In this document: one piece after another, positions 1 through 19,196 of the stretch
How the letters are laid out: every line of letters begins with the position of its first letter
Position numbering within the stretch: position 1 is the stretch's first letter
DNA from: Opitutaceae bacterium
GTDB taxonomy: Bacteria; Verrucomicrobiota; Verrucomicrobiia; Opitutales; Opitutaceae
Direction: 5' to 3'
Length of the DNA stretch: 64,000 bases
Assembly (NCBI GenBank): GCA_018402455.1
Contig: JAGYIG010000012.1
Coordinates: forward strand, 1 to 64,000
Translations under genes and position numbers: made by a program
Notes under the pieces: generated by a model
Told to the model about the DNA's origin: nothing
The model's input: the letters and a program-made list of their open reading frames with translations, nothing else
Databases searched by the model: none

Positions 1-2058
1 GACGTTGATCGCCCGCAGGCCCAGGTTCCAGCGCTCCGAGCTATAACCGGCGATGAGATCGTAGCTGGTGTAGCCGGGCGAGTTGGTGCCGTTGGAAAAG
101 TAGAGGGTGCCGCGGTGGAAGGCACCGCCGCCGACATACCACCCGCCCCCGGCCTGTTGCCCGAAGGTGTATTTTGTCCAGAGGGACCAAGTCTCCTTGA
201 ACGATTGGTTCACGCGGGTCTGGTTGGGGCCGGAGACGTCGGCCGCGAACAAGGTCACCAAGACGTCCCACCCCGGCACTGGTCGCGTGCCTAGTTCAAA
301 TTCCACGCCGCGGTTCGACGTGTCCGATACGACGAAGGCACCGACCGTCGAGTTGAAGGTAGCAAAGTCCTTCAGTTGTAGGTCGTAGAGCGAAAGTGAG
401 CCCCAGAGGCGGTCTTCCAGCGCGTTCCATTTCACGCCCAGCTCATAGGATTTGCCGACCACGGCGGGCGGGCGGATACCTTGGGGCGTTTGGGCGCTGG
501 CTTGATTGGGGGAAAAGGTCGTGGCGGTTTGGCCGTAGAGCTTGAAAGCGTCGCTGACGTGATAGACGGCGCCGACGGAGTAGAGCAGATCGTCATCTTT
601 ATCGCGCCGCCGCGCCGCCTGTTGGGTCCCGTCGGCCAAGTCCTGGTTATCCGATTTCTCGTTAACGAAACTGGCCCCAAGGGTGAGGGACAGGCGATCG
701 GGGATCGCGTCAAAGGACTGCACGAGGTAAGCGGTGAAGTTGCGCACATCGACCCGGGAGTCATTATACTGTCCTGGTATGATGCGATCTTGGGTAGCCG
801 GCAGCGGGATGACAGCGAAGTTGGGATTGGTGATGGAGAGTTGCCCCACGCCGGGAGTGCCGGTGGTGGCGCGGCTGAAGGCCCCAATCCGTTGGCCGTT
901 GACCAGGTTGATTAGCTGCCGGTCACGCTGGTCGAATTGTCGCTGCCAAGACCACCCAGCATTGGTGGACACCTTTATGGCACCGAGATGGTAAGTCCCG
1001 AGGATATCATGCTGGAGGTTTTGAAACAGCTGCGCCCAAGTTTGCCCAAAATAGCGATGCGCAGCCAAGCCGGTGTTGAGATTGGTTGCGCCTTGTCGAC
1101 GATGCTCTTCGTCATCCCGTCCGGTTTGGTCGTGACCGTAGGCGAGTCGGGATTCCCAGTCGCCCCAGCGTTGGATCCACGTTACAACGTGGTTGGAGGT
1201 TTCCTTGCGGGTATAGGACCAGGGAGCCTTATAATCTTGGTTGCGCCCGCCGCCCAGGAAGGGGGCGCCGTCGGGGTTGGCGATGCCGCCGGGGAGCTCT
1301 CCGTCGGTCAAAGTTTCCGCCCACATGAACTGGTAGCGCAGAACGGTTTCCCCGGACGTGAATTGGAGCATTGGCGCGATGGCATCCTGATCAGATTTAC
1401 CCCGGTAGCCCTTGTCGTCCTGTTTTGCGGCGATTACCCGATAGGCAAACTTGGCGTCGCTCCCGCCGAGCGGTCCGGTTAGATCGAGTTCCCCCCGGAA
1501 GAAGCCGTAGCTACCCGCCTGTAAGCGGATGCTCTGCGCGGTTTCGTACAGAGGCTTTTTGGTGATACGGTTGATCAGACCACCCGCCGGAGCCCGCGTG
1601 CCGTAGAGGATGGCGTTGGGGCCTTTCAACACTTCGATGCTGTCGATAACCGAGAGCTCGTTGGGGGAGTTGCTCACCCGCATGCCATCCAGAAACGGTG
1701 CTTCAAAGCGCTGCCCGCGGATTTGGATGAAGTTGTTGCGATTGGTGGCCGGGGGCGCGCCGGCCACGGCAAACTTGAGAATGTCGCCGATGGTCTGGCG
1801 TGAGGCCATGTCGTCGATGAAGTCGCGCGTGACCACGGCCACGCTGGAGGGTAGCGAGATCAGGGCTTTTTGGCTCTTGGTGCCGCTGGCGGCATTGCTG
1901 GTGCGGTAACCGGAGCCGGAGGTCTCGCTGACTTCAAAGGCCGAAAGTACGATGGTATCACCGGTGGGGGGTAACGTTTGGGCGAGGGCTGAACCGACAC
2001 CTAGGATCGAGACGAGGAGCGCGCTCGAGCCGCGAGGGTAAGGGATGGAAGCAATCAT
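1..2058 (-). CDS. TonB-dependent outer-membrane receptor (3' end beyond window)
   Basis: I translated this reading frame by hand from the ATG at 2058; it stays open for 686 codons to position 1, so the C-terminal barrel end lies outside the window. The N-terminus is a signal peptide ending near ALAQ. It is followed by the VLSAFEVSE region common in verrucomicrobial receptors, then a plug domain with IQIRGQRFEAPFLDGMRV and IEVLKGPNAILYGTRAPAGG (roughly residues 110-165), typical of FhuA/siderophore-type receptors. Long aromatic-rich beta strands follow. The family imports bulky ligands across the outer membrane using TonB energy. Its place beside sulfatases suggests a glycan ligand, but the plug resembles ferric-siderophore receptors, so the ligand is open. 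A palindromic operator-like site lies 94 bases upstream. Confidence 0.93.
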   Translation of the reverse strand, partial: MIASIPYPRGSSALLVSILGVGSALAQTLPPTGDTIVLSAFEVSETSGSGYRTSNAASGTKSQKALISLPSSVAVVTRDFIDDMASRQTIGDILKFAVAGAPPATNRNNFIQIRGQRFEAPFLDGMRVSNSPNELSVIDSIEVLKGPNAILYGTRAPAGGLINRITKKPLYETAQSIRLQAGSYGFFRGELDLTGPLGGSDAKFAYRVIAAKQDDKGYRGKSDQDAIAPMLQFTSGETVLRYQFMWAETLTDGELPGGIANPDGAPFLGGGRNQDYKAPWSYTRKETSNHVVTWIQRWGDWESRLAYGHDQTGRDDEEHRRQGATNLNTGLAAHRYFGQTWAQLFQNLQHDILGTYHLGAIKVSTNAGWSWQRQFDQRDRQLINLVNGQRIGAFSRATTGTPGVGQLSITNPNFAVIPLPATQDRIIPGQYNDSRVDVRNFTAYLVQSFDAIPDRLSLTLGASFVNEKSDNQDLADGTQQAARRRDKDDDLLYSVGAVYHVSDAFKLYGQTATTFSPNQASAQTPQGIRPPAVVGKSYELGVKWNALEDRLWGSLSLYDLQLKDFATFNSTVGAFVVSDTSNRGVEFELGTRPVPGWDVLVTLFAADVSGPNQTRVNQSFKETWSLWTKYTFGQQAGGGWYVGGGAFHRGTLYFSNGTNSPGYTSYDLIAGYSSERWNLGLRAINV

Positions 2059-2151
2059 GAATACAGGGGTGAGGGGTGGGGTAACCGCGATCGCGTCGCT
2101 GGTTTCACCTTGAGCAAGCGTCGCCTTTCTGTCCCTGCCAAGGGCGGTGCT

Positions 2152-2172
2152 TTGGTCTAAAGTTTAAACCAA
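2152..2172. promoter_or_regulatory. Operator-like palindrome upstream of TonB receptor
   Basis: A 21-bp near-perfect palindrome: outer half-sites TTGGT and ACCAA, with 9 of 10 arm positions pairing around a central G at 2162. The same TTGGTT-N9-AACCAA pattern with identical spacing recurs at 5320, 8139 and 10900. It lies in the 5' region of the TonB-dependent receptor. It is inferred to be bound by one of the two GntR/LacI-hybrid regulators encoded nearby. Confidence 0.7.
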
Positions 2173-2232
2173 TGTGGTTGGTGCTGGCTTAATCGACGGG
2201 CTTGGGAGCGGAGGCACATTCGGGTGCACCCC

Positions 2233-3837
2233 TCACGGCTGCACAGGCTCAAACCTGACCGTGCTGCTGATGGTATCAACGCCGGGTACTTGAATGACCA
2301 CCTCGTCCCCATCTTGCATGGCCGCCGGGCTGTCCGGCGTGCGGGGCACCGTACCCATGAAAATCATATCGCCGGGGTGCAGGGTGATCCGCCGGCTGAG
2401 GTAGGCGATGATCTCCGCGGGAGTGTAGCGCAGGTTGGCGATGCTGCCGTACTGGACTAATTCTTGGTTGACCCAGGTTTTGATCGTCCAGTCGCGCCAA
2501 GTTGGATCAGGGAGCAGGCGTGGTCCCACCACGGCCCAGCCATCGCCAGACTTGCCAAAAATGCCACCCCAGTCGTTCTCGCTCACGTCATTGCCCACCG
2601 CGTAGCCGGCGATGTGTGACCAAGCCTGCTCGACCGAGACTTGGTAAGCGATGCGCCCGATCACCACCACCAACTCCGCTTCCCAGTCGAGATTGCGGGA
2701 ATCGGTGGGCAGCCGGATGGGGTCCCCCGGCCGGGCCAGGGCATTGGGAAGCTTTGTTCGAATGCGGTCTTCCAACTCTACCATAAAATCCACCACTGCC
2801 GGTGAGTCGGGTCGGTTGGCATTACGCACCACACTGAAGATTTTACCTGTCGGTTTGGGGGGATGCCAGTCTTGCATGGCCTGCACGTGAGGAGCGGCCG
2901 GCGCGGGCAAGTTCGAGGGGCCGTGTCGTGGATTTAGCGCCGGGGCCAAGTTATCCAAGGCCACGGCGTGCCGTAGGCTTCCCAGCCCGTCCCCCCAGGC
3001 TTCAATGGTGGTGCCCGGTTCCAAACGCGGGGCCGCCGCGGCCACCTCCGGTGGCACCCCCAGGAAAATCAAATCACCCGCTTGCAGAGTGAGGATGCGG
3101 CTGATGCGGCTCAACCACTGGCGGGTGAGGGCGGCGGGATCCGGCCAAGTGTAGCTCAGTTCATCTTGGTGGGGCGATCGAAGCCCGAGGGTCAGATGGG
3201 CCTTCGGCATGCCCGGAACGATCCATGGCCCGATCGGCGCCCAACCATCGCCGGCGCGCCCCATCACCCAAGCGCGGTTGGCGTAGGTCGAGGGCTCGAG
3301 CAGATCCAATCCCAGCATATACCCGGCGACCACCGCATCCACTTCCTCGGGGCGCAGTTTCTTGGCCGGGGCCCCGATGAGGATCACCAGCTGGGGGGTG
3401 GCCACGATGGTTCGACTGTCGGCGGGCAACCGGAGAGTCGCGCCGGGATGCGCCAGACTGGTGGGGAAACGGGCGTAGAGGTCCGGGGGTGCCGGCACGG
3501 AGGGAGTAGGCCCGGCGGTGACCCGATGGGCGGAGTCATGTAAACCGATGATCGCCCGGCCCGGTACCGGGGAGAGCCATGTGACCTCGTCGCCGGCCAC
3601 GCGCCCGAAGTCCTGATTGGTCTGGTGGCTTTGCCCGGGGAGGTGGTTGCCTTGCAGGATGATTTCGCCGCCGTCCAGGACCCCGTAGTGCACCTCGCCG
3701 TCATGTGCCACCCGGACCCAACGCTCGCTCGCCGGGGCGGGTGTTGGGGGCGTTGCCCACAGAGCGGTCAGCGCACCCGCGGCAAACAACCCGGCTGCGA
3801 TACGACGGGCGCTAATAGCGCGTGTGAAAGGGATCAT
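2233..3837 (-). CDS. Secreted tandem fumarylacetoacetase-fold (FAH) protein
   Basis: 534 residues with an N-terminal hydrophobic segment (about 12-30) that looks like a signal peptide, followed by two FAH-type domains (about 40-290 and 320-534). The second has the family metal ligands: E386 and E388 in DWEAELVVVIG and D417 in GYAVGNDVS. In the first, the matching Glu positions are T147 and Q149, although D178 remains, so only the second domain is likely catalytic. FAH-fold enzymes are normally cytosolic hydrolases or decarboxylases acting on 1,3-dicarbonyl or 2-oxo acids; an exported tandem form is unusual. The start overlaps the end of the upstream sulfatase by 26 bases, so the two are probably co-transcribed. 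The substrate is unknown. Confidence 0.85.
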   Translation of the reverse strand: MIPFTRAISARRIAAGLFAAGALTALWATPPTPAPASERWVRVAHDGEVHYGVLDGGEIILQGNHLPGQSHQTNQDFGRVAGDEVTWLSPVPGRAIIGLHDSAHRVTAGPTPSVPAPPDLYARFPTSLAHPGATLRLPADSRTIVATPQLVILIGAPAKKLRPEEVDAVVAGYMLGLDLLEPSTYANRAWVMGRAGDGWAPIGPWIVPGMPKAHLTLGLRSPHQDELSYTWPDPAALTRQWLSRISRILTLQAGDLIFLGVPPEVAAAAPRLEPGTTIEAWGDGLGSLRHAVALDNLAPALNPRHGPSNLPAPAAPHVQAMQDWHPPKPTGKIFSVVRNANRPDSPAVVDFMVELEDRIRTKLPNALARPGDPIRLPTDSRNLDWEAELVVVIGRIAYQVSVEQAWSHIAGYAVGNDVSENDWGGIFGKSGDGWAVVGPRLLPDPTWRDWTIKTWVNQELVQYGSIANLRYTPAEIIAYLSRRITLHPGDMIFMGTVPRTPDSPAAMQDGDEVVIQVPGVDTISSTVRFEPVQP

Positions 3838-5269
3838 CCGGGGGGAGGAGCCGGGTCGAAATGAAGGGCGACAGTTCCGGCAGATCCGGTTCCGTGCCGG
3901 GGTAGTCGGGATTGGGGCGGGGCAGTTGCGCTTCGGTGGTACGCTGCCAATAGTGCAGGCGGGCCAAGAGCGCCTGTTTTAGCTCCGGCCGTGCCGCGGC
4001 CAGGTCCTGGGATTCACTGGCGTCAGTCTCCAAGTCATAGAGCTCAATCTGACCGGTCTCGTACCATTCGATGAGTTTGTAGTAGCCGGACCGCAGCGCG
4101 CTGGCTGGGGTGGATCCGTGCATATTGTAGTGGGGGAAGTGCCAGAAAAAGTCCCGCGACGGCAACTCCGACCCGGCCGTTAGGCTGGGGAGCAAGTTCA
4201 GGCCATCCAGTATCAGGTCCGCGGGCGGGGCACCCTGCGCGAGAGCCAACAGGGTCGGCCACAGGTCCACGGCATGCACTGGCCCGGCTTCAATCCTGCC
4301 GGCCCCGGTCATGCCGGGCAGCAGGGTAATCAGAGGAACCCTCAAGCCGGCCTCGTAAACCGTCCCCTTGGTGCCACGCAGGCCACCGTTGGAGCCCCAG
4401 AAGCGCACGCCGCCGTTGTCGGAGGTCAGCACGATCACCGTGTTTTCGGCCAGACCCTCCTCGGCGAGGAACTGCCGCAAGCGTCCAACGCTGGTATCGG
4501 CGTCCTCGATCATGGCCGCGTACTCCGGCACCAAGCCCCAGACGGGGTCGGCGGAGCGGGGGGTCTGACGCGCGATGGTCTCGGCTTTGGCATCGACCGG
4601 GCGGTGGACCGCGAAATGGCTCAAAAGCAGAAAAAAGGGCTGATCCCGGCTGCGCTGGATGAAGGCCTCGGCTTCGGCCTGAAGGCGATCAGTCAGGTAT
4701 TCGCCTGCTTCCACCGGCCCAAGGTTGATGCCATAGTCCGGCCCGAACATGCTCTTGTGGCTACCGATTTGATTGCCGGAGAAATTGAAATCGAACCCTT
4801 GGTCCTGGGGTAAAAAGCCCTCGGCCCCTAAATGCCATTTGCCGACATTGCCCGTGGCGTAGCCCTGATCGCGCAACACTTCCGCGAGTGTGATTTCTTC
4901 CAAGGCCAGCCGCCGCACCGTGGTAGGAGGCAGCAACCGCCGGTTCTCATTCCACCGTACTCCCGCCGTGCCGATGGCATCGGTGACGCCCGATCGCGCC
5001 GGCCAGCGCCCGGTCAACAAGCCCGCCCGCCCGGGTGAGCAAACCGGCCCGGCCGCGTAAGCCTGGGTGAAACGGATGCCATCGGCCGCGAGCCGGTCGA
5101 TGTGTGGGCTGTTTACCTTGGGATTGCCGTAGCAAGCCAGATCGCCGTAACCCAGATCATCGAGCAGAATAATGATCAGGTTGGGACGCTCAGGGGTGGC
5201 GGGCAGTTGGGCCGGCAGGCCCAGGGCCATGGCGGCCCAACAGAGGAAAACATTCAGGTAACGGTTCAT
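3812..5269 (-). CDS. Secreted sulfatase (arylsulfatase A-like)
   Basis: 485 residues. A signal peptide covers about 1-25 and ends near LPAT. The sulfatase fold begins with the metal-binding IILLDDLGYGD, and the formylglycine motif is CSPGRAGLLTGR with C77 as the modified residue. GKWHLG and TSDNGG (second metal and active-site elements) are present, with a C-terminal subdomain ending in PDYPGTEPDLP. It hydrolyses a sulfate ester, probably on a sugar, in the periplasm or at the cell surface, and needs a formylglycine-generating enzyme not encoded here. It is the first gene of a leftward unit with the FAH gene and is divergent from another sulfatase across an operator-like site. The exact sulfate position cannot be read from sequence alone. 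Confidence 0.93.
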   Translation of the reverse strand: MNRYLNVFLCWAAMALGLPAQLPATPERPNLIIILLDDLGYGDLACYGNPKVNSPHIDRLAADGIRFTQAYAAGPVCSPGRAGLLTGRWPARSGVTDAIGTAGVRWNENRRLLPPTTVRRLALEEITLAEVLRDQGYATGNVGKWHLGAEGFLPQDQGFDFNFSGNQIGSHKSMFGPDYGINLGPVEAGEYLTDRLQAEAEAFIQRSRDQPFFLLLSHFAVHRPVDAKAETIARQTPRSADPVWGLVPEYAAMIEDADTSVGRLRQFLAEEGLAENTVIVLTSDNGGVRFWGSNGGLRGTKGTVYEAGLRVPLITLLPGMTGAGRIEAGPVHAVDLWPTLLALAQGAPPADLILDGLNLLPSLTAGSELPSRDFFWHFPHYNMHGSTPASALRSGYYKLIEWYETGQIELYDLETDASESQDLAAARPELKQALLARLHYWQRTTEAQLPRPNPDYPGTEPDLPELSPFISTRLLPPDDPFHTRY

Positions 5270-5319
5270 GGGGTGGCGTAAGCCTTGGGCGGCATCGACT
5301 CGAACTAAAGCCCAACCCG

Positions 5320-5340
5320 ATGGTTTACTTTTTGAACCAA
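5320..5340. promoter_or_regulatory. Operator-like palindrome between divergent sulfatase genes
   Basis: TGGTT at 5321 and AACCA at 5335 have the same 14-base period as the other three copies of TTGGTT-N9-AACCAA. It lies between the leftward sulfatase start (5269) and the rightward sulfatase start (5386), so one site could control both genes. An ATG inside it (5320) is in frame with the rightward sulfatase but is unlikely to be its start. Confidence 0.65.
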
Positions 5341-5385
5341 GGCTATCGGCTCGCGGGGAGGATCAAGCCCCCTTTAGACCGAAAT

Positions 5386-6855
5386 ATGCGTACCCTGCTG
5401 ACATGGCTGAGGAATTTGAGCCTGTGCTGTCTGAGTTTGACTGGAACCGGTGTGGCCGGCCAGGAGGCTGCGACCGCACCGACTCGGCCTAACATCATCT
5501 TCATCATGACTGATGACCAGGGGTGGGGTGATGTGGGCTTCAACGGGCATCCCGTGTTGCAGACGCCTCACCTCGACCAACTGGCGCGGGAGGGGATCAA
5601 GCTGGATCGGTTCTATGCGGCGGCGCCAGTTTGCTCACCCACGAGAGCCTCCAGTCTTACGGGCCGGCACCCCAGTCGTTACCGCATTGATTGGGCTTAC
5701 GGGGGGCCGCTGCCGGCCAGTGAGGTCACCACCGCGACCCTTTTGCGGGAGGCAGGTTACCGCACTGCTTTGCTGGGCAAATGGCATTTGGGGCAACTCA
5801 GCAGGACTCTGCCCCAAGGTCGGCGGCACACGCCCGAACCCGCGCGCTACGCCCCGCCTTGGGAGCGCGGATTTGACGTGGTTTTTGCCACCGAAGGTAG
5901 TGTGCCCACCTTTAATCCCTACTACTACGTTGACCCGCGGGGGCCGGCCCAACCCATTTTGGAGCAGGCGGCCGAGACCTTGGGCACCGCTCATCGCTGG
6001 CCGCAGAATTATTGGACCGGGCCGGGTCGTTTTGTGGACGAGCCCCTGACGGGTGACGATTCAGCGCTCATCATGGATCGGGCCTTGGAGTTTATCCGGG
6101 ACAGTCGGGAGCAGCCCTTCTTCGCCTGTATCTGGTTTCATACGCCGCACTCGCCGATTGCGGCCGGCGAGGCTTGGCGGGCGCTCTACCCCAACCGCTC
6201 ACTGGCCGAGCAGCACTGGTGGGGCAGCTTGAGCGCGATGGACGCCCAGGTGGGGCGATTGCGGGCTGAACTGGAGCGGCTGGGGATTGCGGAAGGTACC
6301 ATCCTCTTTTTTTGCAGCGACAACGGTCCCTCCTATGTTCATCCGTTGGGTAGCACCAGTCCTTTCCGTGGCCGCAAAGGCAGCCTTGAGGAAGGCGGAA
6401 TCCGCGTGCCGGCTTTGGTCTCGTGGCCGGGCGGCTTGTCCGGTGGTCGGGTCGTGAGCGAGCCCCTTTCCACCAGTGACTTGTTGCCGACCTTTTTGCA
6501 CTGGGCCAAGGTCGCAGCACCCCGTGCCGTGCATTGGGACGGGGAGAACGTAACCGCGCTCCTCGCCGCTGAGGGGAGCGCTCGTGAGCGGCCGATTTTT
6601 TTCCACTCCCCGTTGCGCAACCCGAACGATCCCTGGCCTCGTCCCGAGGGTTTTCAGGCGGCGGTGCAATGGCGTGACTTCAAATTGTTATCCTTGGACG
6701 CGGGGGCGACTTGGGCGCTCTATAATCTGGATGCTGATCCCGGCGAGGAGATTGACCTTTCCAAGGAGGCGGCCGAGGTGGTGACGACGCTGCGCGCGCA
6801 GTATGACCAATGGCGCGAATCTTGTCTCGAGTCCCGGGCTTGGTACGACCGTTGA
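5386..6855 (+). CDS. Secreted sulfatase
   Basis: 489 residues from the ATG at 5386, chosen because it gives a clean signal peptide (MRTLLTWLRN onward, cleavage near VAGQ); an earlier in-frame ATG at 5320 would put the start inside the operator-like palindrome. Metal-binding IFIMTDDQGWGD and the formylglycine motif CSPTRASSLTGR (C83) are present, as are GKWHLGQ and FFCSDNGP. The latter half has the C-terminal sulfatase subdomain with LYNLDADPGEE. The predicted role is exo-acting sulfate ester removal outside the cytoplasm. It is divergent from the sulfatase at 3812-5269 and convergent with the regulator gene that ends at 6862. Confidence 0.92.
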   Translation: MRTLLTWLRNLSLCCLSLTGTGVAGQEAATAPTRPNIIFIMTDDQGWGDVGFNGHPVLQTPHLDQLAREGIKLDRFYAAAPVCSPTRASSLTGRHPSRYRIDWAYGGPLPASEVTTATLLREAGYRTALLGKWHLGQLSRTLPQGRRHTPEPARYAPPWERGFDVVFATEGSVPTFNPYYYVDPRGPAQPILEQAAETLGTAHRWPQNYWTGPGRFVDEPLTGDDSALIMDRALEFIRDSREQPFFACIWFHTPHSPIAAGEAWRALYPNRSLAEQHWWGSLSAMDAQVGRLRAELERLGIAEGTILFFCSDNGPSYVHPLGSTSPFRGRKGSLEEGGIRVPALVSWPGGLSGGRVVSEPLSTSDLLPTFLHWAKVAAPRAVHWDGENVTALLAAEGSARERPIFFHSPLRNPNDPWPRPEGFQAAVQWRDFKLLSLDAGATWALYNLDADPGEEIDLSKEAAEVVTTLRAQYDQWRESCLESRAWYDR

Positions 6856-6861
6856 TCGGCA

Positions 6862-7941
6862 CTACTTGTGCAGATTTCGCAATGAAGCTCCCGTCACGAA
6901 CTCGGCGATGACCTCGTAGGCCGGCGGACTCAGTTTTTCGCCTTCTACGAGGTGGGCCAGACGAGTGAGAATATGGCGTGCCATGGTGACGGGACTGAGA
7001 TGATAGCGAGTTGGTGTGGGGACCAGGTGGTGGAGAAAGGGGTCGTTCAGGCGGCTGACTAGCGAAACGTCGGCGGGTGCCGCCAGTTTGGCCCTGGCTA
7101 GGGCCGACCAGGCGGTCAGGTATTGATTGGGCGTCTCCGTCACGATGCAAGTGGGGCGCGGGTGGCTGCGTAGCCGGTGCAGGATCCGTTGAGCCAGTAG
7201 GGCGTCCTGCCCGTCGTAGGGAAGTGGATCCACCCGCTGATCACCATCCCCTGGACCCTCCAGGCCCTCCTGCAGGCCCGCCTCGCCCTCAACCAAGCCG
7301 GGCAATCTGGGCCGAGAGCTGACCATGATCACCTGACGATGGCCATAACGTCGCAGCATCACGCCGAGGTGCCGGCCGACTGCGCGGTGGTTGACATCAA
7401 CTGAAGGCAGGGCGATGCCCGCATAGGTATGACCGGAGACCAAGGTGGGGATGCGTTCGCGTTCAAACCAAGACTGGGTTTTTGGCGTGGAGTGAACGAG
7501 AATCCAGCCATGATGCCGGTAGTTGGCGACCAGCTGGCGTAACGGCTTCGCCGGGTATTGAGAAAAGTAACTACCCCCGTGATGGAGGATGAGTTTCCAG
7601 CCCCGGGCATGCGCACCTGCCTTGAGATGCGCGATCAGCATGGCCAAATAGGGACGAAGCGGTTCTAAGGGGCGGGGGGAAAGCACGCCAATTTCGATCT
7701 CTCTCGTGGCGAGAGCGAGGGGAGGCGAGTTGGGCGGAATCAGGTTGCCTTGAGGACTGCCTGTGAGCTTGCCGGAGGCGCGCAGCAGCGTCAAGGCAGC
7801 ACGCAGTGTGCCTCGACTGATCCCTAGTTCTATCGCTAAATTGCGCTCGCTGGGCAGCCGTTGCGCCCAGGTGCCCTCGCGGATCAAAGCCTCCAGGTGT
7901 TGCGCGACGTGGACGGGTAGACTTGGTCGGATTGCGGTCAT
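6862..7941 (-). CDS. GntR-type transcriptional regulator with LacI-like sensor domain
   Basis: 359 residues. A winged-helix GntR-type DNA-binding domain occupies about 1-70 (RLPSERNLAIELGISRGTLR is the recognition region). The remainder resembles the periplasmic-binding-protein-like effector domain of LacI-family repressors, with IGVLSPRPLEPLRPYLAMLI, PSVDVNHRAVGRHLGVML and the family's repeated alpha/beta layout. Such hybrids usually sense a sugar. It has the same length and domain layout as the regulator at 9722-10801. The leader contains an operator-like palindrome at 8139-8159, about 200 bases upstream, consistent with autoregulation. It is convergent with a sulfatase. The ligand is unknown; a sialic-acid or sulfated-glycan product is the obvious candidate. 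Confidence 0.85.
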   Translation of the reverse strand: MTAIRPSLPVHVAQHLEALIREGTWAQRLPSERNLAIELGISRGTLRAALTLLRASGKLTGSPQGNLIPPNSPPLALATREIEIGVLSPRPLEPLRPYLAMLIAHLKAGAHARGWKLILHHGGSYFSQYPAKPLRQLVANYRHHGWILVHSTPKTQSWFERERIPTLVSGHTYAGIALPSVDVNHRAVGRHLGVMLRRYGHRQVIMVSSRPRLPGLVEGEAGLQEGLEGPGDGDQRVDPLPYDGQDALLAQRILHRLRSHPRPTCIVTETPNQYLTAWSALARAKLAAPADVSLVSRLNDPFLHHLVPTPTRYHLSPVTMARHILTRLAHLVEGEKLSPPAYEVIAEFVTGASLRNLHK

Positions 7942-9721
7942 AGATGACCTACTTGTTTAGGGTTGAAATACGAGATGGGGGCAACTCGCCGGAACGTGTC
8001 CCGATTGACGCGGCACGGGCATGAAGCAACATTGAGTTCCGCATGGTCGGGTAGGGAGCATGGCAGTAGGAAGCGTGCGGAAGGGGGGGGGATGCGGGTT
8101 GGCTATCAGCCATTGTGGTCGGGGATAACTTGATTGATTTGGTTTAATTTTTGAACCAACCTTTGCAAACCGAACAAGGCCGGGGCCAAATTATACTGCG
8201 ATGAGGGTCTTTGGTTTGGACCACTACATCCGCTTGTAAATACGACAATTGGGGCATCTTTTTCGTCATGGTTGTGTAGCTCGAAATCGATGTAATCCTT
8301 CCATCAACGCTGAAGGGAGATGCGCTCTCCCGGGGCGCTCGTGCCCGGGCGGTCGAGGTTCCATGTCTCCATGCGGCGTGTGCGCAGCTTCTCTCATGCA
8401 TCTCGACTTCACGGTCCTCAGCCTCCGCGCTGTCTATCAATGGATGATCTCCTCCATCCTGCCACGACCCAATGCCTGGGTGGGTTCGGTGTCAGCTGAG
8501 GGGGATACCCACCTCGCTCCTTACTCTTTTCTAAGGGTGTCACGGCCAACCCGCCCCGCTTATGTTTGTGCCGTTTAATAACCGCGCCGGGGTGAAGAAG
8601 AACACCGGCCGCAACAATGAGGCGACGGGCAAGTTTACGGTGAACCCGGCAACTTGATTTTCGGTCGAATCGGCTTGGCGCATGTAGGTACTAGGTCTTG
8701 GACGCCCAAGGTCGAGCTGCCGTGAAAAAACTCGACCTGATCGGACGGCGGGGCGGCGATGACCACGCGATCGGGCGGGAGAAATTTTCTCACAGGGCCC
8801 TGTTGAGGAATCCCGTCACGAGTCACGCGCCCGGCCCTGGCTGGCCGGCTGCGCATGCGAAGCAACATGCGTCGGTGATTGCGGGGACGAGAATGGGTAG
8901 GCCGGCGGCGACGGCGCGGATGGCTTTGAGCTGGGCTGGGGCGCGAGCATCGCGTTGGCGATGGGGTTGGATTTTGCGAGTTCCCCGTTGCCTGCTTGCG
9001 ACCCCACAATCTCCATGGCCCGTGTCCCGCATCGCGTCCCCGAATCCGGCCCGGCGCTAGTGGCAGTGGCAATTGAAGTCCGTGGGCACGCCTTCAATCA
9101 TGTAGACTAGGCCCCCAACGGGAGCCCGGCAGCGAGAACCTCACCGACGGAGCGGGTTCCCCCCCGGATTGTTTAGGCTCGCAGAGGAGACGTCGAGCCC
9201 AACCACAACGATTACCTACAAAGATTAAATCCGATCGTATCGAGGAGAATAGAAAAACTTTAAGCCTATCCCAAAACAAGGGCTCCTTTTATGCAACGGC
9301 CGGTGGTTCTTTGCGCTTAATATGGCAGGTCAAAACTCCTCACCTTGGTCATGGGGCGACCAAGTTTCGGAACGTCCAGCCCAACCGACGCGGTGTGCCC
9401 GCCAAAGCTCTGGCCAAGAGTTGTGCCGGTTGGTATAGGGCAAGGTTTGTTACACCCTAACGCAGGTTTTGCTGTCGACATTGCGACCTTGGGCGTTTTC
9501 AGGCGCTGGTCTTTTAATGACCCCTTTCGAGCCCTTTTCATGCATTCGAATCGCACCCCCGTAATGACTGTCTAGGGTGCTTGAATCGGGGGTAAATCTA
9601 GGCACGCCGCCAGCCGACGGCAATTGCACTCGGCGACGAGGAGCCCTCGCGCTCGATTGACAATGAAGCGCACAACCAGCGATATTCCGCTCTGCTCAAC
9701 TGAAAAGCCTCTCCTAAACCC
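7942..9721. other. Gene-poor 1.8-kb interval inside the sulfatase/sialate locus
   Basis: I find no convincing gene here. The interval contains the operator-like palindrome at 8139-8159 near its left end. Reading frames between 8144 and 9575 on both strands have shadow-like composition and no recognisable motif. A 31-codon frame at 8562-8657 and short leftward stretches around 8830-9110 read like possible protein remnants, but they change frame and match no family I know. Decayed coding sequence is one possibility; a long leader or a small RNA is another. Nothing more can be supported from sequence. Confidence 0.4.
8139..8159. promoter_or_regulatory. Operator-like palindrome upstream of the first regulator gene
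   Basis: This is the best match to the shared pattern, with perfect TTGGTT and AACCAA half-sites separated by nine A/T-rich bases. It lies about 200 bases upstream of the regulator start at 7941, with no gene on the other side for 1.5 kb. Confidence 0.7.
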
Positions 9722-10801
9722 ATGCTCCGACGGCTCACGCTAATAGATCAAATCGAGTTCGAAATCAAACAGCGGATTTCCAGCGGCTTATGGCAGGTGG
9801 CGCTTCCGGCCGAGCGTAGTATGTGTGCCGAATTGAGGGTGGGGCGTAATTCGTTACGCGCCGCATTGGCCCGTCTCAAGCAAGAGGGCTTGTTGATGAT
9901 CGAACCAGGGGTGGGCATCAAAATCCGACATTCCTCAGGTGGGATGGCATCTCAGCCTCAGGAAACTGTTGCCCTGCTCTCGCCCGTGCCGTTGGGAAAC
10001 CTTCGGCCCCATCAGACGCTCTGGATTGACGAACTCAGGGGATTGCTGGCGGAAAAGGAGATTATCGTGCGATTTCATTGTGAAAGCCGCTGTTTCCGAC
10101 CAGGGGCAGCCAAAGCCATCGCAAAATTTGTCAAGCTACAGCCCGCCAGCTGTTGGGTCCCGGTACATTCTACGCTGACTATGCAGAACTGGTTCCAAAG
10201 CAGCCGAACGCCGTGTGTTATTGCGGGCTCCTGTCATGAAGGGGTTGATTTGCCTTATGTTGATCTTAATCATCATGCCACTTGCCGTCACGCGGCGATA
10301 ACTTTTCTGCGACTTGGTCATCGGCGCATCGCCTTTTTGACGCGGTTGGCGGAAAACGCCGGCGACCAGCAAAGTGAGCGGGGTTTCATGGAAGGGGTGG
10401 CAGAGTCTGAGGATCGTCAGGCAGTTGGCACCGTGCTGCATCTCGATAACGACAAGAGGCATACCGCTCGCGTGATTGGCAGATTGATGGCTCGAAGCGA
10501 CGCTCCTACAGCCATATTGGTCAATCAATCCTATCATTATTTGACAGTTTTCAGCATTTTAATGCAGATGGGAAAGTCCATTCCGGCCAACATATCCCTG
10601 ATCTGCCGTGACCATGACAATTTCTTGTCATTCCTTGAGCCGACCCCGGCCTACTATGGAGATGATGCTAAATTATTCTCAAAAAAAATGATACGGGTTC
10701 TGACATCCGTCATGTCAGGGGCGGCGTCCAGCAATACCCGTGTTAATTTGCTGCCGGAATTGATCATGGGTAGCAGCATTGCCCCTCTGGCTCTGGTGTA
10801 A
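9722..10801 (+). CDS. GntR-type transcriptional regulator with LacI-like sensor domain (second paralog)
   Basis: 359 residues, the same length and layout as the regulator at 6862-7941. A GntR winged helix lies at about 1-75, with ALPAERSMCAELRVGRNSLR aligned to the recognition region of the paralog, followed by a LacI/PBP-like effector domain (VALLSPVPLGNLRPHQTLWI, LPYVDLNHHATCRHAAITFL, GHRRIAFLTR). It is transcribed toward the sulfatase/sialate operon that starts at 11042 and ends 99 bases before the palindrome at 10900. Base composition is somewhat more A/T-rich than in its neighbours, which could reflect a different history. It is probably the local regulator of the downstream operon; the effector is unknown. 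Confidence 0.85.
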   Translation: MLRRLTLIDQIEFEIKQRISSGLWQVALPAERSMCAELRVGRNSLRAALARLKQEGLLMIEPGVGIKIRHSSGGMASQPQETVALLSPVPLGNLRPHQTLWIDELRGLLAEKEIIVRFHCESRCFRPGAAKAIAKFVKLQPASCWVPVHSTLTMQNWFQSSRTPCVIAGSCHEGVDLPYVDLNHHATCRHAAITFLRLGHRRIAFLTRLAENAGDQQSERGFMEGVAESEDRQAVGTVLHLDNDKRHTARVIGRLMARSDAPTAILVNQSYHYLTVFSILMQMGKSIPANISLICRDHDNFLSFLEPTPAYYGDDAKLFSKKMIRVLTSVMSGAASSNTRVNLLPELIMGSSIAPLALV

Positions 10802-10899
10802 ACCGCTATTCCTTATCGCTGAGGAAGCCAAAAGGTTGTTTAAACCTAGCCTAGGAAACGGCATATGCGACGGATAGTTAACGCCCCCGTCGAGATGGA

Positions 10900-10920
10900 G
10901 TGGTTCTAAAAGCGAACCAA
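10900..10920. promoter_or_regulatory. Operator-like palindrome upstream of sulfatase/sialate operon
   Basis: TGGTT at 10901 and AACCA at 10915 have the same spacing as the three other sites. It sits in the 240-base gap between the second regulator gene and the first sulfatase of the long rightward operon (start 11042), where an operator would be expected. Confidence 0.65.
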
Positions 10921-11041
10921 CAGCTGGAGCTTGTGCCGGCCTCCACCGTGGGCTCCGCTGGTGGTGATCGATCGTGTCTCGCCGGGCGGTTGGTTTACGC
11001 CTGCCCCCTCCTTCTTTTTATCGCTCGTTCGATTACCTGCC

Positions 11042-12514
11042 ATGTTTCACAAAACAGCCATCGCCACCGTGTTCTTGTTTGGGTTGATTTGTGCCCAAGC
11101 TTCAAGCGATTTGCCCCGCCCGAACATCCTATTGATTATTTCCGAAGACCACGGGCCCGAACTGGGGTGTTACGGTGATCCCTATGCGGTAACTCCGGTC
11201 TTGGATCGCATGGCCGCGCAAGGCGTCCGCTATGAACGTGCTTATGTGGCCCAAGCGGGTTGTAGTCCTTCGCGGGCGAGTATCATGACCGGTCTTTACA
11301 CCCACCAGAACGGTCAGGTAGGTCTGGCCACGTGGGGATTTCGTCTCCGGCATGATGTGCCCGCGACCGTGCCGAAAATCCTCCAGGAAGCGGGATACCG
11401 GACCGGAAATATTGGGAAAATCCATGTCAACCCGGAGTCGGCCTTTCCCTACGACATGCGCAAGATCCCTTCCGGCAATTTCGCCCGCCGTAATCTGGAG
11501 GATTATGCGCGGTATGCGGGTGAGTTCATGACCGAGTCGAACCAGCCCTTCTTTCTATGTGTGAACTACCCTGAAGCGCACGTGCCGTGGGAGCGTCAAG
11601 TCAACGGCTTGCCGGAGCAGCCGTTAAACGCTAAGGATATGCAATTGCCGTCATATTTTGGAGTTCACACCCCTGAGCTGCACGAGAGTTTCGCCAATCA
11701 CTATAATTCAGTCATGCGATTGGACAGTCTGATCGGCGATCTATTGGCCCAACTGGAAGTCTCGGGCAAGGCGGAAAACACCCTGATCGTCTTTGTAAGT
11801 GACCATGGTCCAGACTCTTTACGGGGAAAACGATCCTGCTATGAAGGCGGCGTCCGCGTGCCGTTGATCATTAAGTGGCCGGGGAAACTGGCCCCGAATC
11901 AAACCGTCAACACCTTGGTTTCTACCGTGGATCTGCTTCCGACGTTCCGGCTCGCGGCCGGGCTGGCGCCCGATAGCGATTTGCCCGGTTCCTCTCTTCT
12001 GCCGGAGTGCCTGACGGCGGCGGCGGATCCCAGTCGGGATCACGTTTTCTTCGAATATCATACGCACGCCGCCGCCCCCAATTACGGTCCGCAGCGGGCG
12101 GTGCGGGGTAATCGTTATAAATTGATCAAGAACCTTCGCCCTAATGTGCCGAGTCCCGGGTATACCTTTACCCTGGGTAAAGTCCCCTCATTGCCGGAGG
12201 GGCTAGCGCGAGCGCCTGAACACGTCAAGGCAAGCTATGCCCGCATAGCTCACCCGCCGGCTTATGAACTTTATGATCTAAAGAATGATCCGGACGAGTT
12301 TTACAATCTGGCCAATGATCCGGCCCATGCCGATATCAAGCAAGGGCTGCGGCAGGTGCTGCACGACTGGCGAGTGGCGACGGAGGATCCTCTCCTCTCG
12401 GCCGAGGTGTTGGAACGTTTTACACGGGAGGTTACGGGAATCACCGATCGAGTGGACGCGCGCAATCGCGAGTGGGACTACGTGCGTTATTTTTATGAAA
12501 ACCGCTCGAACTGA
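11042..12514 (+). CDS. Secreted sulfatase (N-sulfoglucosamine sulfohydrolase-like)
   Basis: 490 residues from the ATG at 11042, chosen for its signal peptide (MFHKTAIATVFLFGLICAQA); the open frame begins further upstream without a better start. The first metal motif is LLIISEDHGPELGCYGD and the formylglycine motif CSPSRASIMTGLYTHQNG gives C74. The EDHGPE and YTHQNG variants resemble the heparan N-sulfatase (sulfamidase) branch, but that is a judgement from motifs only. VSDHGPD and YEGGVRVPLIIKWPG complete the fold. It is the first gene of a rightward operon (11042-21791), with an operator-like palindrome about 120 bases upstream, and its end overlaps the next gene by 20 bases. Confidence 0.9.
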   Translation: MFHKTAIATVFLFGLICAQASSDLPRPNILLIISEDHGPELGCYGDPYAVTPVLDRMAAQGVRYERAYVAQAGCSPSRASIMTGLYTHQNGQVGLATWGFRLRHDVPATVPKILQEAGYRTGNIGKIHVNPESAFPYDMRKIPSGNFARRNLEDYARYAGEFMTESNQPFFLCVNYPEAHVPWERQVNGLPEQPLNAKDMQLPSYFGVHTPELHESFANHYNSVMRLDSLIGDLLAQLEVSGKAENTLIVFVSDHGPDSLRGKRSCYEGGVRVPLIIKWPGKLAPNQTVNTLVSTVDLLPTFRLAAGLAPDSDLPGSSLLPECLTAAADPSRDHVFFEYHTHAAAPNYGPQRAVRGNRYKLIKNLRPNVPSPGYTFTLGKVPSLPEGLARAPEHVKASYARIAHPPAYELYDLKNDPDEFYNLANDPAHADIKQGLRQVLHDWRVATEDPLLSAEVLERFTREVTGITDRVDARNREWDYVRYFYENRSN

Positions 12515-14027
12515 TTGTGGTCTAGGGCGCACTCCCCTCCTTTGGTTTGTGGCGCTTTTCCGTTGTTTGGCGGTGTCGCTTGGGCTGGCGGTGGGCGCGT
12601 TGGCGTCTGCGGTGGTCGTGCCGCCGCCCAATATCCTCATGATCGTGGTCGACGACATGAACGATTGGATTGGCGCATTGGGAGGGCATCCACAGGCAAA
12701 AACACCCCATCTGGACCGTTTGGCTGAGCGGGGTCTGTTATTTGCCAATGCCCACGTGCCGGCACCGGTATGTAATCCTTCGCGGGTGGCCGTTTTGACC
12801 GGACTCAACCCCAGCACGACGGGCATATATGACAATAGCGTGCGGTGGCACGAGGCCTATCCGGACCTGATCAGTCTGCCGCAGTATTTCAAGGACCACG
12901 GCTACCAAGTGGTGGGGGGCGGCAAGGTGCACCACCACACGCCGGGCAACAATCGGGAGTCCGACTGGAACCGTTACTTTCCGCAGGTTTTTGACAGCCA
13001 TGCGCAGAAGCACCTCTGGACGACGGGATCTTGGCGGGGCTTCGCCTGGCCGGAGGGTTTCCCGCTCAATCAGATCCCAGCCGTGCAACAACTCACTCGT
13101 CCGCCCGCAAACCCGCGGGAGTTTGATTGGGGGTCATTTGATCGGGAGGATTTGGAGATGGGAGATGGGCACATGGTGGCATGGCTGGAGGATTTTCTAG
13201 CCACGCCGGGAGAGGACCCTTTCTTCGCGGTGGCCGGGATCTACATGCCCCACTTGCCTTGGTACGCGCCACAGCGCTACTTCGATCTCTACGATCGTGA
13301 TACCCTGCTGGCCCCGCCCATTTTGGCGAAAGATTTGGATGATATTCCTGCCATCGGTCAACAAATGGCAGCGGTCCGGCGTGAGGACCTCGACCTAGTG
13401 CACGCTGAGGGCCAATATCAGGATGTGCTTCATGCCTACCTGGCCTGCATCTCCTACGCCGATGCCTTGGTGGGGCGTTTACTTGATGCGATCGATGGCA
13501 ACGACCTGGCGAGTAATACCATCATTGTGTTCTGGTCTGATCATGGGTGGCATTTCGGGGAAAAAAATCACCTGCACAAATTTACTCTTTGGGAGCGTTC
13601 CACGCGTATCCCCATGATGATAGTTGCGCCCGGGCACACCCGGGCCGGTTCGGTCACCTCGGCACCGGTGGGCGCCATCGACCTGTTCCCGACGCTGGTC
13701 GAGTTGGCAGGTTTGCCGGAGCATGGCCCGTTGGACGGTCAGAGCTTGGTGCCTTTGCTGGCGGCAACCGACCGGCCGTGGCCTCGCCCGGCCCTGACCA
13801 CCCATGGCGCGGGCAACCATACGCTGCGCAGCCGGCATTGGCGTTATATCCGCTATGTGGATGGCGGCGAGGAGTTGTATGACCATCGCACGGACCCCAA
13901 CGAATGGCATAATTTGGCGCTCAACCCGGCCTATCGGGGGGTGATTGATCTCTTGGCCGAACATCTGCCGGCCCGTGACGCGCCCCGGAAAACCGCCCAG
14001 CGGGTGCAGTCCCTGGACAGTCGGTAA
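12495..14027 (+). CDS. Secreted sulfatase (iduronate-2-sulfatase-like)
   Basis: 510 residues from the ATG at 12495, which lies inside the end of the preceding gene; a hydrophobic export segment covers about 15-40. The sulfatase core has ILMIVVDDMNDWIGALGGHP, the formylglycine motif CNPSRVAVLTGLNPSTTGIY (C93), GGGKVHHHTPG, and FWSDHGWHFGEKNHLHKFTL. The last is the form seen in the iduronate-2-sulfatase-like branch. It probably removes sulfate from a uronic acid or sugar residue outside the cytoplasm. The 20-base overlap with the upstream sulfatase implies translational coupling. Confidence 0.9.
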   Translation: MKTARTDCGLGRTPLLWFVALFRCLAVSLGLAVGALASAVVVPPPNILMIVVDDMNDWIGALGGHPQAKTPHLDRLAERGLLFANAHVPAPVCNPSRVAVLTGLNPSTTGIYDNSVRWHEAYPDLISLPQYFKDHGYQVVGGGKVHHHTPGNNRESDWNRYFPQVFDSHAQKHLWTTGSWRGFAWPEGFPLNQIPAVQQLTRPPANPREFDWGSFDREDLEMGDGHMVAWLEDFLATPGEDPFFAVAGIYMPHLPWYAPQRYFDLYDRDTLLAPPILAKDLDDIPAIGQQMAAVRREDLDLVHAEGQYQDVLHAYLACISYADALVGRLLDAIDGNDLASNTIIVFWSDHGWHFGEKNHLHKFTLWERSTRIPMMIVAPGHTRAGSVTSAPVGAIDLFPTLVELAGLPEHGPLDGQSLVPLLAATDRPWPRPALTTHGAGNHTLRSRHWRYIRYVDGGEELYDHRTDPNEWHNLALNPAYRGVIDLLAEHLPARDAPRKTAQRVQSLDSR

Positions 14028-14066: not shown

Positions 14067-15518
14067 ATGAATAAATATATACGGAGCACTTTAGGGCTAC
14101 TCAGCCTCGGACTCGGCGTGACGGGGGCGACGGCGTCGGCGGCTAATCCTCCCAATATAGTTTTATTCCTCATTGACGACATGGGGTGGCGCGATTTGGG
14201 CGCCTATGGCAGCGACTACTACCAGACGCCCGCTATCGACCGTTTGGCCAAGGAGGGCGTCAAGTTTACCGATGCCTATGCTGCTTGTGCCGTCTGCACG
14301 CCCTCCCGGGCGGCGTTGCTCACCGGCAAGTATCCGGCGCGATTGTTGATGACCAATTGGACGCCGGACGGTCGGTGGAGCCCACGTTCTCCGTTGCGAG
14401 AGGGTCGATTCTTGCGTGATTTGCCCCTGGAGCAAATCACGTTGGCGGAGGCGCTGCGGGAGGCGGGCTACGTCACGGGGCACTTTGGTAAATGGCACTT
14501 GGGAGGTCCGCCCTTTTCGATGCCGGAGCACCATGGCTTTGACGTCAACGTGGGGGGGCATCCTTACGGTGCCCCGGGTGACTATTTTTATCCCTATCAG
14601 GTGGACTGGCCGATTCCCTCCACGGGCCGGCGGGCACGCGACCAGATACTGACGGATGGAGAGCCCGGCGAGTATCTGACCGAACGGTTAACCGATGAGG
14701 CGGTGGCCTTTATTCAGCAGAATCAAGACAAGCCGTTCTTTCTCTATTTTCCCCATTACGCGGTACACACTCCCCTGCAAGCCCGGCCTGAGGTAGTGGC
14801 CCGGTATGAAGCCATCCCGGCCGCCCAGCGCCAGGGCGATCCCACCTATGCTGCCATGGTGGAGAGCGTGGACGATAGCGTGGCGCGAGTGATGGCGGCA
14901 CTTGAGGAAGCGGGCGTGGCAGAGAATACCTTGGTTATTTTCACTTCCGACAACGGCGGCCACTGGCGCGTAACCCAACATGCCCCCCTGCGTGGTCATA
15001 AAGGCACCTACTGGGAAGGGGGCATACGCGTTCCCTTAATTCTCACCATGCCTGGTTTGATGGATCGTGGGCGCGTGATCACGGAGCCTGTCATGGCAAC
15101 CGACCTCTATCCCACCATCCTGGCAGCGGCCGGTCTGCCGCTCCGCCCCAACCAGCATGAAGACGGGCTCAACCTGCTCCCGCTCCTTCGCGGAGAAACT
15201 GCGTTGAACCGGCAAGGTCTTTTCTGGCATTTCCCGCACTACAATAACCATCCGGAAACGCGGCCATCGAGCGCCTACCGAAGGGGCGATTGGAAGCTTA
15301 TCGAGTCGTTCGACCCCTCAGGCTTTGAACTTTATAATTTGGTGGAGGACTTGGGCGAAACGACCAATCGGTGGTCCACCGAGACGACCAGGGGTAGGGC
15401 CATGCTCGAGGAACTGGAACAGTGGCGGCGGGCCGTGGGGGCGGAGCCCATGCGGCCCAATCCGGATTTTGATCCCGCCTTCCAAGGCCGAGCCAGCACC
15501 CGTAGAAAGGCAAACTAA
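14067..15518 (+). CDS. Secreted sulfatase (arylsulfatase A-like)
   Basis: 483 residues. The signal peptide is MNKYIRSTLGLLSLGLGVTG, ending near ASAA. The core has VLFLIDDMGWRDLGAYGSDY, formylglycine motif CTPSRAALLTGKYPARL (C77), GHFGKWHLGG, and FTSDNGGHWRVTQHAPLRGH. The C-terminal part, FWHFPHYNNHPETRPSSAYR, is shared in pattern with the sulfatase at 3812-5269 (WHFPHYNMHGSTPASALR), so the two probably belong to one subfamily and may act on the same kind of sugar. It is separated from the previous gene by 39 bases; its stop overlaps the start of the next sulfatase by one base. Confidence 0.92.
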   Translation: MNKYIRSTLGLLSLGLGVTGATASAANPPNIVLFLIDDMGWRDLGAYGSDYYQTPAIDRLAKEGVKFTDAYAACAVCTPSRAALLTGKYPARLLMTNWTPDGRWSPRSPLREGRFLRDLPLEQITLAEALREAGYVTGHFGKWHLGGPPFSMPEHHGFDVNVGGHPYGAPGDYFYPYQVDWPIPSTGRRARDQILTDGEPGEYLTERLTDEAVAFIQQNQDKPFFLYFPHYAVHTPLQARPEVVARYEAIPAAQRQGDPTYAAMVESVDDSVARVMAALEEAGVAENTLVIFTSDNGGHWRVTQHAPLRGHKGTYWEGGIRVPLILTMPGLMDRGRVITEPVMATDLYPTILAAAGLPLRPNQHEDGLNLLPLLRGETALNRQGLFWHFPHYNNHPETRPSSAYRRGDWKLIESFDPSGFELYNLVEDLGETTNRWSTETTRGRAMLEELEQWRRAVGAEPMRPNPDFDPAFQGRASTRRKAN

Positions 15519-17017
15519 TGAAAATTACCCCCACCTGTTTACTCAGCCTGGGCCTGCTCATGGCGGCAGGAGAGGCCGACGGCAGCGGCGTTAACAAACC
15601 CAACGTGCTGTTTATAGCCATCGACGATCTCCGTCCGGCCCTGGGCACCTATGGTGACCCCCTGGCCATTTCGCCGCACATTGACGCGCTGGCGGCGAAC
15701 GGTCGACGATTTGATCGAGCCTATACGCAGCAGGCGGTATGCGGGCCCTCCCGCGCCTCGTTGCTCACCGGCAAACTACCTGATAACATTAGAGTCTGGC
15801 ACAACCGTAATCATTTTCGGGATACTCGACCTGATTTGGTGACGTTGCCGCAATGGTTTATGGGTCAGGGCTATCAAGCGATAAGCATAGGCAAAACGTA
15901 CAGCGGCAATCCGCGCGAGGAAGATCCGGCTTCATGGTCAGAGCCCGCGGTGCTGCGGGCCGCGGATTGGCACACCTATGCTTTGGCGGACAAGGATCGT
16001 ACAGGCGGCAAAGGGGTCTCCTATGAGGCCGCCGATCTGCCGGATGATGCCTACGCCGACGGGCAAGTGACGGAGATGGCCCTGGCACGCCTGCGCGAGT
16101 TCAAGGCCAAGTCGCAGCCGTTTTTTCTGGCGGTGGGCTACTTCAAACCGCACCTGCCCTTTAATGCCCCCAAGCAGTACTGGGACCTGCACGACCGGGA
16201 GAAATTTGCCCCCGATCCGTCTTGGGCGCTGGTGGAGGGCGCACCCGCCGAGGCTTATCACGAGCACCGGGAATTGGGCGGTTATGTGGACATGCCTCTC
16301 GATGAGCAACTGACGGTTGAGCAGAGCATCACCATGCGTCACGGCTACTATGCATGCGTTACCTACATTGACGCCCAGATCGGCCGGATTATGGCTGAAC
16401 TGGAAGCCACGGGGTTGATTGAGAATACCATTATTGTGTTGTGGGGCGACCATGGGTTTGCGCTGGGCGAGAACCAACGCTGGTGCAAGGGCACTAATTT
16501 CGAAGCAGATACCCGGGTGCCCCTCATTATACGTGCTCCTAGCATGAATGCTCCCGGGGAGGCCACCACCGCGTTGTTTGAATTGGTCGACCTTTACCCT
16601 ACGCTAACTGATATGATTGCGCAGACCGTGCCAGCTGGCCTCGATGGGCGGTCTCAAGTTGCCACCCTGCGGGATCCCCTTGCCCCGGGCCGCAAGTATG
16701 CCCTCAGCCAGTTTGCCCGACCCTTCACTCGCCCTGATCCCGAGGTGATGGGCTATTCTCTGCGCACCGCCGGTCAGCGTTACACCCAATGGCGGGAATA
16801 TGCGACGGGCGTGGTGTTGTCGGAGGAGTTTTATGATTACTCCGATCAGCAAAGCGTGGAAGAAGACGGACCCTATGAGTGGGAGAGGCGCAACATGATA
16901 GCCAGCGCCTCGTATCAGGATCACATCAGCGCGATGCGGACGTCCTTGGCGGCTACCCTGAGGGAGCGCACCGAGGCCGGACCAGCCAAAGCCGGCAAGA
17001 AGCCGGAGCGGCGTTAA
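15518..17017 (+). CDS. Secreted sulfatase (iduronate-2-sulfatase-like)
   Basis: 499 residues starting within the stop of the previous gene. A short signal peptide ends near GEADG. The core has VLFIAIDDLRPALGTYGDP, formylglycine motif CGPSRASLLTGKLPDNIRVW (C75), FFLAVGYFKPHLPFNAPKQY, and LWGDHGFALGENQRWCKGTN. These are characteristic of the iduronate-2-sulfatase-like branch, and the LRPALGTYGD element differs from the A-type enzymes nearby. The likely role is sulfate ester hydrolysis on a glycan. It is the last sulfatase before the sialidase, 35 bases downstream. Confidence 0.92.
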   Translation: MKITPTCLLSLGLLMAAGEADGSGVNKPNVLFIAIDDLRPALGTYGDPLAISPHIDALAANGRRFDRAYTQQAVCGPSRASLLTGKLPDNIRVWHNRNHFRDTRPDLVTLPQWFMGQGYQAISIGKTYSGNPREEDPASWSEPAVLRAADWHTYALADKDRTGGKGVSYEAADLPDDAYADGQVTEMALARLREFKAKSQPFFLAVGYFKPHLPFNAPKQYWDLHDREKFAPDPSWALVEGAPAEAYHEHRELGGYVDMPLDEQLTVEQSITMRHGYYACVTYIDAQIGRIMAELEATGLIENTIIVLWGDHGFALGENQRWCKGTNFEADTRVPLIIRAPSMNAPGEATTALFELVDLYPTLTDMIAQTVPAGLDGRSQVATLRDPLAPGRKYALSQFARPFTRPDPEVMGYSLRTAGQRYTQWREYATGVVLSEEFYDYSDQQSVEEDGPYEWERRNMIASASYQDHISAMRTSLAATLRERTEAGPAKAGKKPERR

Positions 17018-19161: not shown

Positions 19162-19196
19162 TCCTCCCGTTTGTGCTCACCCCTCATCGATCACGC

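Follow-up and report, generated by a model that had tools for sequence, protein, structure and literature searches.

A sulfatase locus near the start of a 64,000-nucleotide stretch of DNA from an Opitutaceae bacterium (contig JAGYIG010000012.1, positions 1 to 64,000; hereafter the window) contains four palindromes and two regulator genes, all within 9 kb. It raises the questions of which protein would read these palindromes and whether the genes beside them answer to one regulator or to two. The genes of the locus are as follows:

1..2058, minus strand: TonB-dependent receptor, truncated by the contig start
2233..3837, minus strand: FAA-hydrolase-domain protein, 534 aa, with two matched stretches; overlaps the sulfatase A gene
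3812..5269, minus strand: sulfatase A
5389..6855, plus strand: sulfatase B; the start at 5389 is our choice, and the open reading frame (ORF) opens at 5320, within a palindrome
6862..7941, minus strand: regulator A, 359 aa, GntR winged helix-turn-helix (HTH) plus Peripla_BP_3 (LacI-type) domain
9722..10801, plus strand: regulator B, 359 aa, GntR winged HTH plus Peripla_BP_3 (LacI-type) domain
11042..12514, plus strand: sulfatase C
12285..14027, plus strand: sulfatase D (ORF; true start uncertain)
14067..15518, plus strand: sulfatase E
15518..17017, plus strand: sulfatase F
17053..18219, plus strand: BNR sialidase-like protein
18226..19161, plus strand: NanA-like (DHDPS family) lyase
19131..21791, plus strand: NanM-type kelch domain and, after it, a sodium:solute symporter domain in a single ORF, 886 aa

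The last of these, the NanM-kelch/symporter ORF, has matches of similar length in several relatives' loci. Between the site upstream of regulator A and the start of regulator B (~8160-9720) lies about 1.5 kb of DNA without any ORF of at least 150 aa.

Four palindromes with one spacing

The original prediction had described four equally spaced palindromes, each beside a different transcription unit (the TonB receptor, the divergent sulfatases, a regulator, and a sulfatase-sialidase operon). Both the positions and the neighbouring genes were confirmed, with mismatches counted against TTGGTT-N9-AACCAA:

2152..2172, no strand assigned: operator-like palindrome TTGGTCTAAAGTTTAAACCAA, ~95 bp upstream of the TonB receptor start, 1 mismatch
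5320..5340, no strand assigned: operator-like palindrome ATGGTTTACTTTTTGAACCAA, between the divergent sulfatases A and B, 1 mismatch
8139..8159, no strand assigned: operator-like palindrome TTGGTTTAATTTTTGAACCAA, ~200 bp upstream of regulator A, 0 mismatches
10900..10920, no strand assigned: operator-like palindrome GTGGTTCTAAAAGCGAACCAA, between the regulator B stop and sulfatase C, 1 mismatch

All four are intergenic, and the last precedes the run of four sulfatases, the BNR sialidase-like protein, the NanA-like lyase and the NanM-kelch/symporter ORF. Seven places in the window match TTGGTT-N9-AACCAA with at most two mismatches (1.32 expected; seven were reached in 0 of 100 shuffles), and among these seven only the four palindromes have at most one. 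When the half-site was shortened and the spacing left free (TGGT-Nk-ACCA), k = 11 retrieved exactly the four palindromes from the intergenic DNA of the window, while every other k from 3 to 19 gave 0 or 1 match; three further TGGT-N11-ACCA matches are intragenic. The sites at 2152, 5320 and 8139 have in common a longer palindrome, TTGGTTYAA-N3-TTRAACCAA, which excludes the site at 10900. A sigma-70-like promoter was sought at the four sites, and none was found.

The two regulators had been predicted to be GntR/LacI hybrids of identical length, which was borne out by the domains that Pfam assigns to each (GntR and Peripla_BP_3) and by their common length of 359 aa. They are 30% identical, their recognition helices differ (SRGT versus GRNS), and a search of the genome at E ≤ 0.001 returned no other member of their family. 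None of the NCBIfam models reached its own cut-off against either protein. The profile of the family matches GntR-type and LacI-type structures, including the ligand-domain structure of AraR (3tb6, 2.1e-14) and the HTH of NanR (6on4, 1.4e-11). TGGT-N11-ACCA stands upstream of regulator A and is absent upstream of regulator B.

The motif across the genome

The original prediction had proposed a genome-wide scan with a matrix built from the four sites, and its outcome in the 3.67-Mb assembly (100 contigs, 91% complete) depended on the stringency of the motif. The exact form TGGTTY-N7-RAACCA occurs at three places in the genome, all at the window locus (5321, 8140 and 10901), versus none in the control, and the site at 2152 is one base off this form. 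The looser forms were no commoner than in the control or barely above it, and carry little or no signal: TTGGTTN9AACCAA with at most two mismatches gave 118 matches versus 93, and TGGTTYN7RAACCA with at most one mismatch gave 31 versus 31. The longer palindrome TTGGTTYAA-N3-TTRAACCAA, with at most three mismatches, gave 6 places versus 1. Of strict form and loose matrix, only the former showed enrichment. The subtype of the site found with regulator B was also scanned in four relatives' genomes (G120, G086, G013 and G078), where matches were below the control in every case, and a site at 448119 in G120 has no homologue of the window genes around it.

The N11 spacing in the regulator family

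Homologues of the two regulators were searched in 141 genomes at E ≤ 0.001, which returned matches to B in 71 and to A in 51 (the bacterium's own genome counted, the weakest matches being partial). A first set of 80 loci (L052-L091 and L121-L160), drawn around the stronger matches only and thus a subset of all matches, yielded 85 regulator upstream regions, of which 83 came from relatives and two from the window. TGGT-Nk-ACCA occurred at k = 11 in 20 of the 85 upstreams (regulator A among them) and in between 0 and 3 for any other k in the range 0-25. The shorter GGT-Nk-ACC was present at k = 11 in 35 of the 85, against 1 to 14 at other k. These counts overstate independence, since the 85 include close relatives (for example L061 and L064). 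In the intergenic DNA of the 80 loci outside the regulator upstreams, k = 11 accounted for 27 sites, compared with 0-4 at k from 4 to 10 and from 12 to 19. Eight of the 40 intergenic sites listed sit just downstream of a regulator gene, like the site at 10900.

The same spacing recurred in two further sets. Among eight held-out regulators, k = 11 gave three sites in two upstreams and no other k from 0 to 21 gave any. Among 42 regulators taken from elsewhere in the phylum (other orders and classes), it was found in 11 upstreams (ten independent ones, since one divergent pair shares its sites) versus 0-2 at other k. A de novo palindrome search over whole loci was overwhelmed by terminator-like repeats and by GC-rich palindromes of coding DNA; restricted to intergenic DNA, it revealed the shared spacing. 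Judged by these comparisons, TGGT-N11-ACCA is the unit that is conserved and is a feature of the GntR/LacI-hybrid regulator family, and the 11-bp distance between half-sites appears to be a property of much of this family in the phylum. Two half-sites conserved together with their distance are what would be expected of a dimer on DNA.

Recognition of the site nevertheless varies within the family: even GGT-N11-ACC is absent from the 400 bp upstream of 50 of the 85 regulators, a genus of small genomes with family regulators (g121; L269 and L271-L277) has no N11 site upstream in any of the eight examined, and locus L083 carries a different palindrome, [AT]CTCGCATTGGCATGCAAGA, in three copies (4359, 9014 and 9188) around its family regulator, perhaps its own operator. 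Inside the coding DNA of the 80 loci, TGGT-N11-ACCA was also commoner than other spacings (30 versus 6-21), an excess that is unexplained and may reflect intragenic operators or wrong gene calls.

Taken with the window, these counts make it very probable that the four palindromes are operators of this hybrid family. That the repeats instead form RNA hairpins, or are palindromes by chance, would agree with the 8 of 9 complementary pairs present in two of the four. Yet the spacing counts single out k = 11, a scan of 1-12000 turned up 13 terminator-like stems but none at the position of a site, and we rejected the hairpin reading, which we regard as scarcely credible, because just one of the 40 intergenic sites of relatives is able to pair at all of positions 5-8. 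Palindromes do not by themselves name the protein that binds them, and the four could in principle belong to another factor, LacI-type or global, with the hybrids nearby by coincidence. This we consider improbable, since in three sets the N11 spacing goes with the regions upstream of the hybrids themselves, and the strict form is confined to the window locus, unlike what would be seen for a global factor. In addition, most LacI motifs described in the published survey are of even length, and 1173 of 1303 LacI regulators have a central CG (PMC4052901, in the part covered), whereas the four sites are 21-bp odd palindromes without a central CG.

Assignment of the sites to the two regulators

Given operators of the hybrid family, the remaining question is whether both regulators share all of them. 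In a tree of the 85 regulators, B groups with the regulators of L053 (genome G120) and L052 (genome G086) with support of 99/97, whereas A forms a long branch without a supported place. All three members of the regulator-B clade have corresponding sites ahead of sulfatase C. The site reads TGGTTCTAAAAGCGAACCA in the window and TGGTTCTATTAAGGAACCA in L053, where it occupies the same interval, between regulator and sulfatase; in L052 it is a single site, CGGTTCCAATTCAGGACCG, ~60 bp upstream (probability by chance 0.027 in 100 bp and 0.094 in 300 bp). In G086 one family member was detected, the regulator-B orthologue. Another genome, G390, carries on one contig (C18) homologues of the TonB receptor (60%), regulator A (45%), sulfatase B (62%), sulfatase A (56%) and regulator B (43%). 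Its divergent sulfatase interval, beside homologues of both regulators, holds a single matching site, CGGTTTGGAAAGAGGACCA (probability by chance 0.032), and its interval between TonB receptor and regulator A lacks GGT-N11-ACC and holds only a one-base variant, CGGCCCAAAGATTGTACCG.

A single regulon, in which one regulator, or both redundantly, would bind all four sites, fits with the TGGT-N11-ACCA common to them, with the confinement of sites and regulators to 9 kb, and with the presence of both regulators, the TonB receptor and sulfatases A and B on one contig of G390. Against it stand the longer palindrome, shared by three sites and missing at 10900, the differing recognition helices of A and B, and the sulfatase-C site of G086, where only a regulator-B orthologue was detected; we therefore hold a single regulon to be possible but somewhat doubtful. 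Two adjacent modules are favoured because the sulfatase-C site accompanies the regulator-B lineage in G120 and G086, the latter showing one family member. From these few sequences we lean towards assigning the sites at 2152, 5320 and 8139 to regulator A and that at 10900 to regulator B. Of the regulon originally predicted, the role of the sites as operators of the local hybrids is thus well supported by comparison in three sets, while its unity is less so, two adjacent modules probably describing the locus better.

A second cluster on contig C13

Another contig of the same genome, C13, carries a second TonB/BNR/sulfatase cluster with similar sites. A segment of 6.1 kb (C13:166064-172145) holds 5 of the 27 loose matches outside the window, which was equalled in 0 of 200,000 random placements in a test made post hoc. 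Three of these five matches are intragenic, and the two intergenic ones lie upstream of a sulfatase and upstream of a TonB receptor, the latter (TGGTTCTATAATAGAACCG) resembling the regulator-B sites. No family regulator was found at this cluster. A search of 88 loci placed homologues of the BNR genes of C13 in L053 and L052, both of the regulator-B clade (69-72% identity, whichever query was better), and also in five other family-regulator loci (43-73%).

Because the similar sites of C13 have no family regulator beside them, control in trans from the window is predicted, and regulator B is a rather likely candidate for it. The regulon thus probably extends past the coordinates of the original prediction to contig C13.

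Two FG-GAP-like proteins of C13 have homologues (89% and 59%) in locus L207, one on each side of a family regulator that has two N11 sites. The closer of these (L207 6270-8246) shares 89% protein identity with the C13 gene across genomes of different families, which suggests recent transfer.

Comparison with known regulators and a candidate mechanism

The closest counterpart in domain architecture is AraR of Bacillus subtilis, which likewise joins an N-terminal GntR winged HTH to a C-terminal LacI/GalR-type ligand domain, an arrangement that Pfam finds in both window regulators. As far as the cited texts were covered, AraR governs a local sugar-use regulon with autoregulation (PMC4218819, PMC4494728), and in its operator consensus, At(T/A)tGTaCGTAcaa(A/T)T, GT and AC are separated by 4 bp (PMC4218819). 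The operator differs, being GT-N4-AC with a CGT/ACG centre in AraR as opposed to 11 bp and another half-site here, and TGGT-Nk-ACCA at the AraR-like k = 4 was found in 2 of 85 and 2 of 42 upstreams. The effector may differ as well: AraR responds to arabinose, whereas the sulfatase, sialidase-like and TonB-receptor targets here suggest sialate or sulfated sugars.

Other GntR-type regulators share single traits with the window proteins. FadR-type sites are given with TKGT/ACMA half-sites and 3 (or 2) bp between GT and AC, and HutC sites with 4 bp (PMC4494728, in the part covered); the half-site letters of the former agree with TGGT/ACCA, whereas the spacing here is 11, and TGGT-N3-ACCA and TGGT-N2-ACCA occur in none of the 85 and none of the 42 upstreams. 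E. coli NanR, whose HTH matches the family profile, is a regulator of sialic-acid genes and is described as binding GGTATA direct repeats (PMC8012715, in the part covered). FadR and NanR have an all-helical FadR-type C-terminal domain in place of Peripla_BP_3. Peripla_BP_3 is shared with the LacI/GalR family, but Pfam at E ≤ 0.001 places a GntR and no LacI HTH at the N terminus of regulators A and B. In the account of YtrA covered here, GT and AC are distant from the centre, at quoted positions 12-13 and 29-30, which suggest to us a GT-to-AC distance of ~15 bp. GT-N11-AC thus fits none of the operators of AraR, FadR, HutC, YtrA, LacI or NanR as they are described in the parts of these sources covered, and an earlier report of it was not found in the open-access literature, surveyed mostly by listing.

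By analogy of domain architecture, the window regulators may work like AraR with another operator geometry. Regulator dimers would bind the four palindromes, the GntR-type winged helix of each subunit reading one TGGT half-site, and the LacI-type domain would serve dimerisation and the sensing of a sugar ligand. Following the AraR model, of repression without ligand and release by sugar, both regulators would most likely repress and be released once a breakdown product of a sulfated, sialylated glycan binds. Regulator A would most likely control the TonB receptor, sulfatases A and B and itself, by autorepression, and regulator B the sulfatase-sialidase operon behind 10900 and, in trans, the C13 cluster. 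That the ligand is sialate or a sulfated derivative is a guess that we base on the NanA-like, NanM-like and sulfatase genes nearby.

Implications for glycan use in the phylum

The bacteria concerned are rich in sulfatases and glycan-degrading enzymes, and the GntR/LacI hybrids of the phylum likely form a separate operator class (GT-N11-AC versus 2-4 bp), governing numerous loci of sulfatase, sialidase and TonB-receptor genes, among them targets that lie in separate parts of a genome, as in this bacterium. With a shared, recognisable site, the targets of each regulator could be read from sequence, including unlinked clusters that act on one substrate. A half-site distance of 11 bp instead of 2-4 bp would also imply a different geometry of the dimer on DNA, and poses the structural question of how an AraR-like dimer may span half-sites 15 bp apart, centre to centre.
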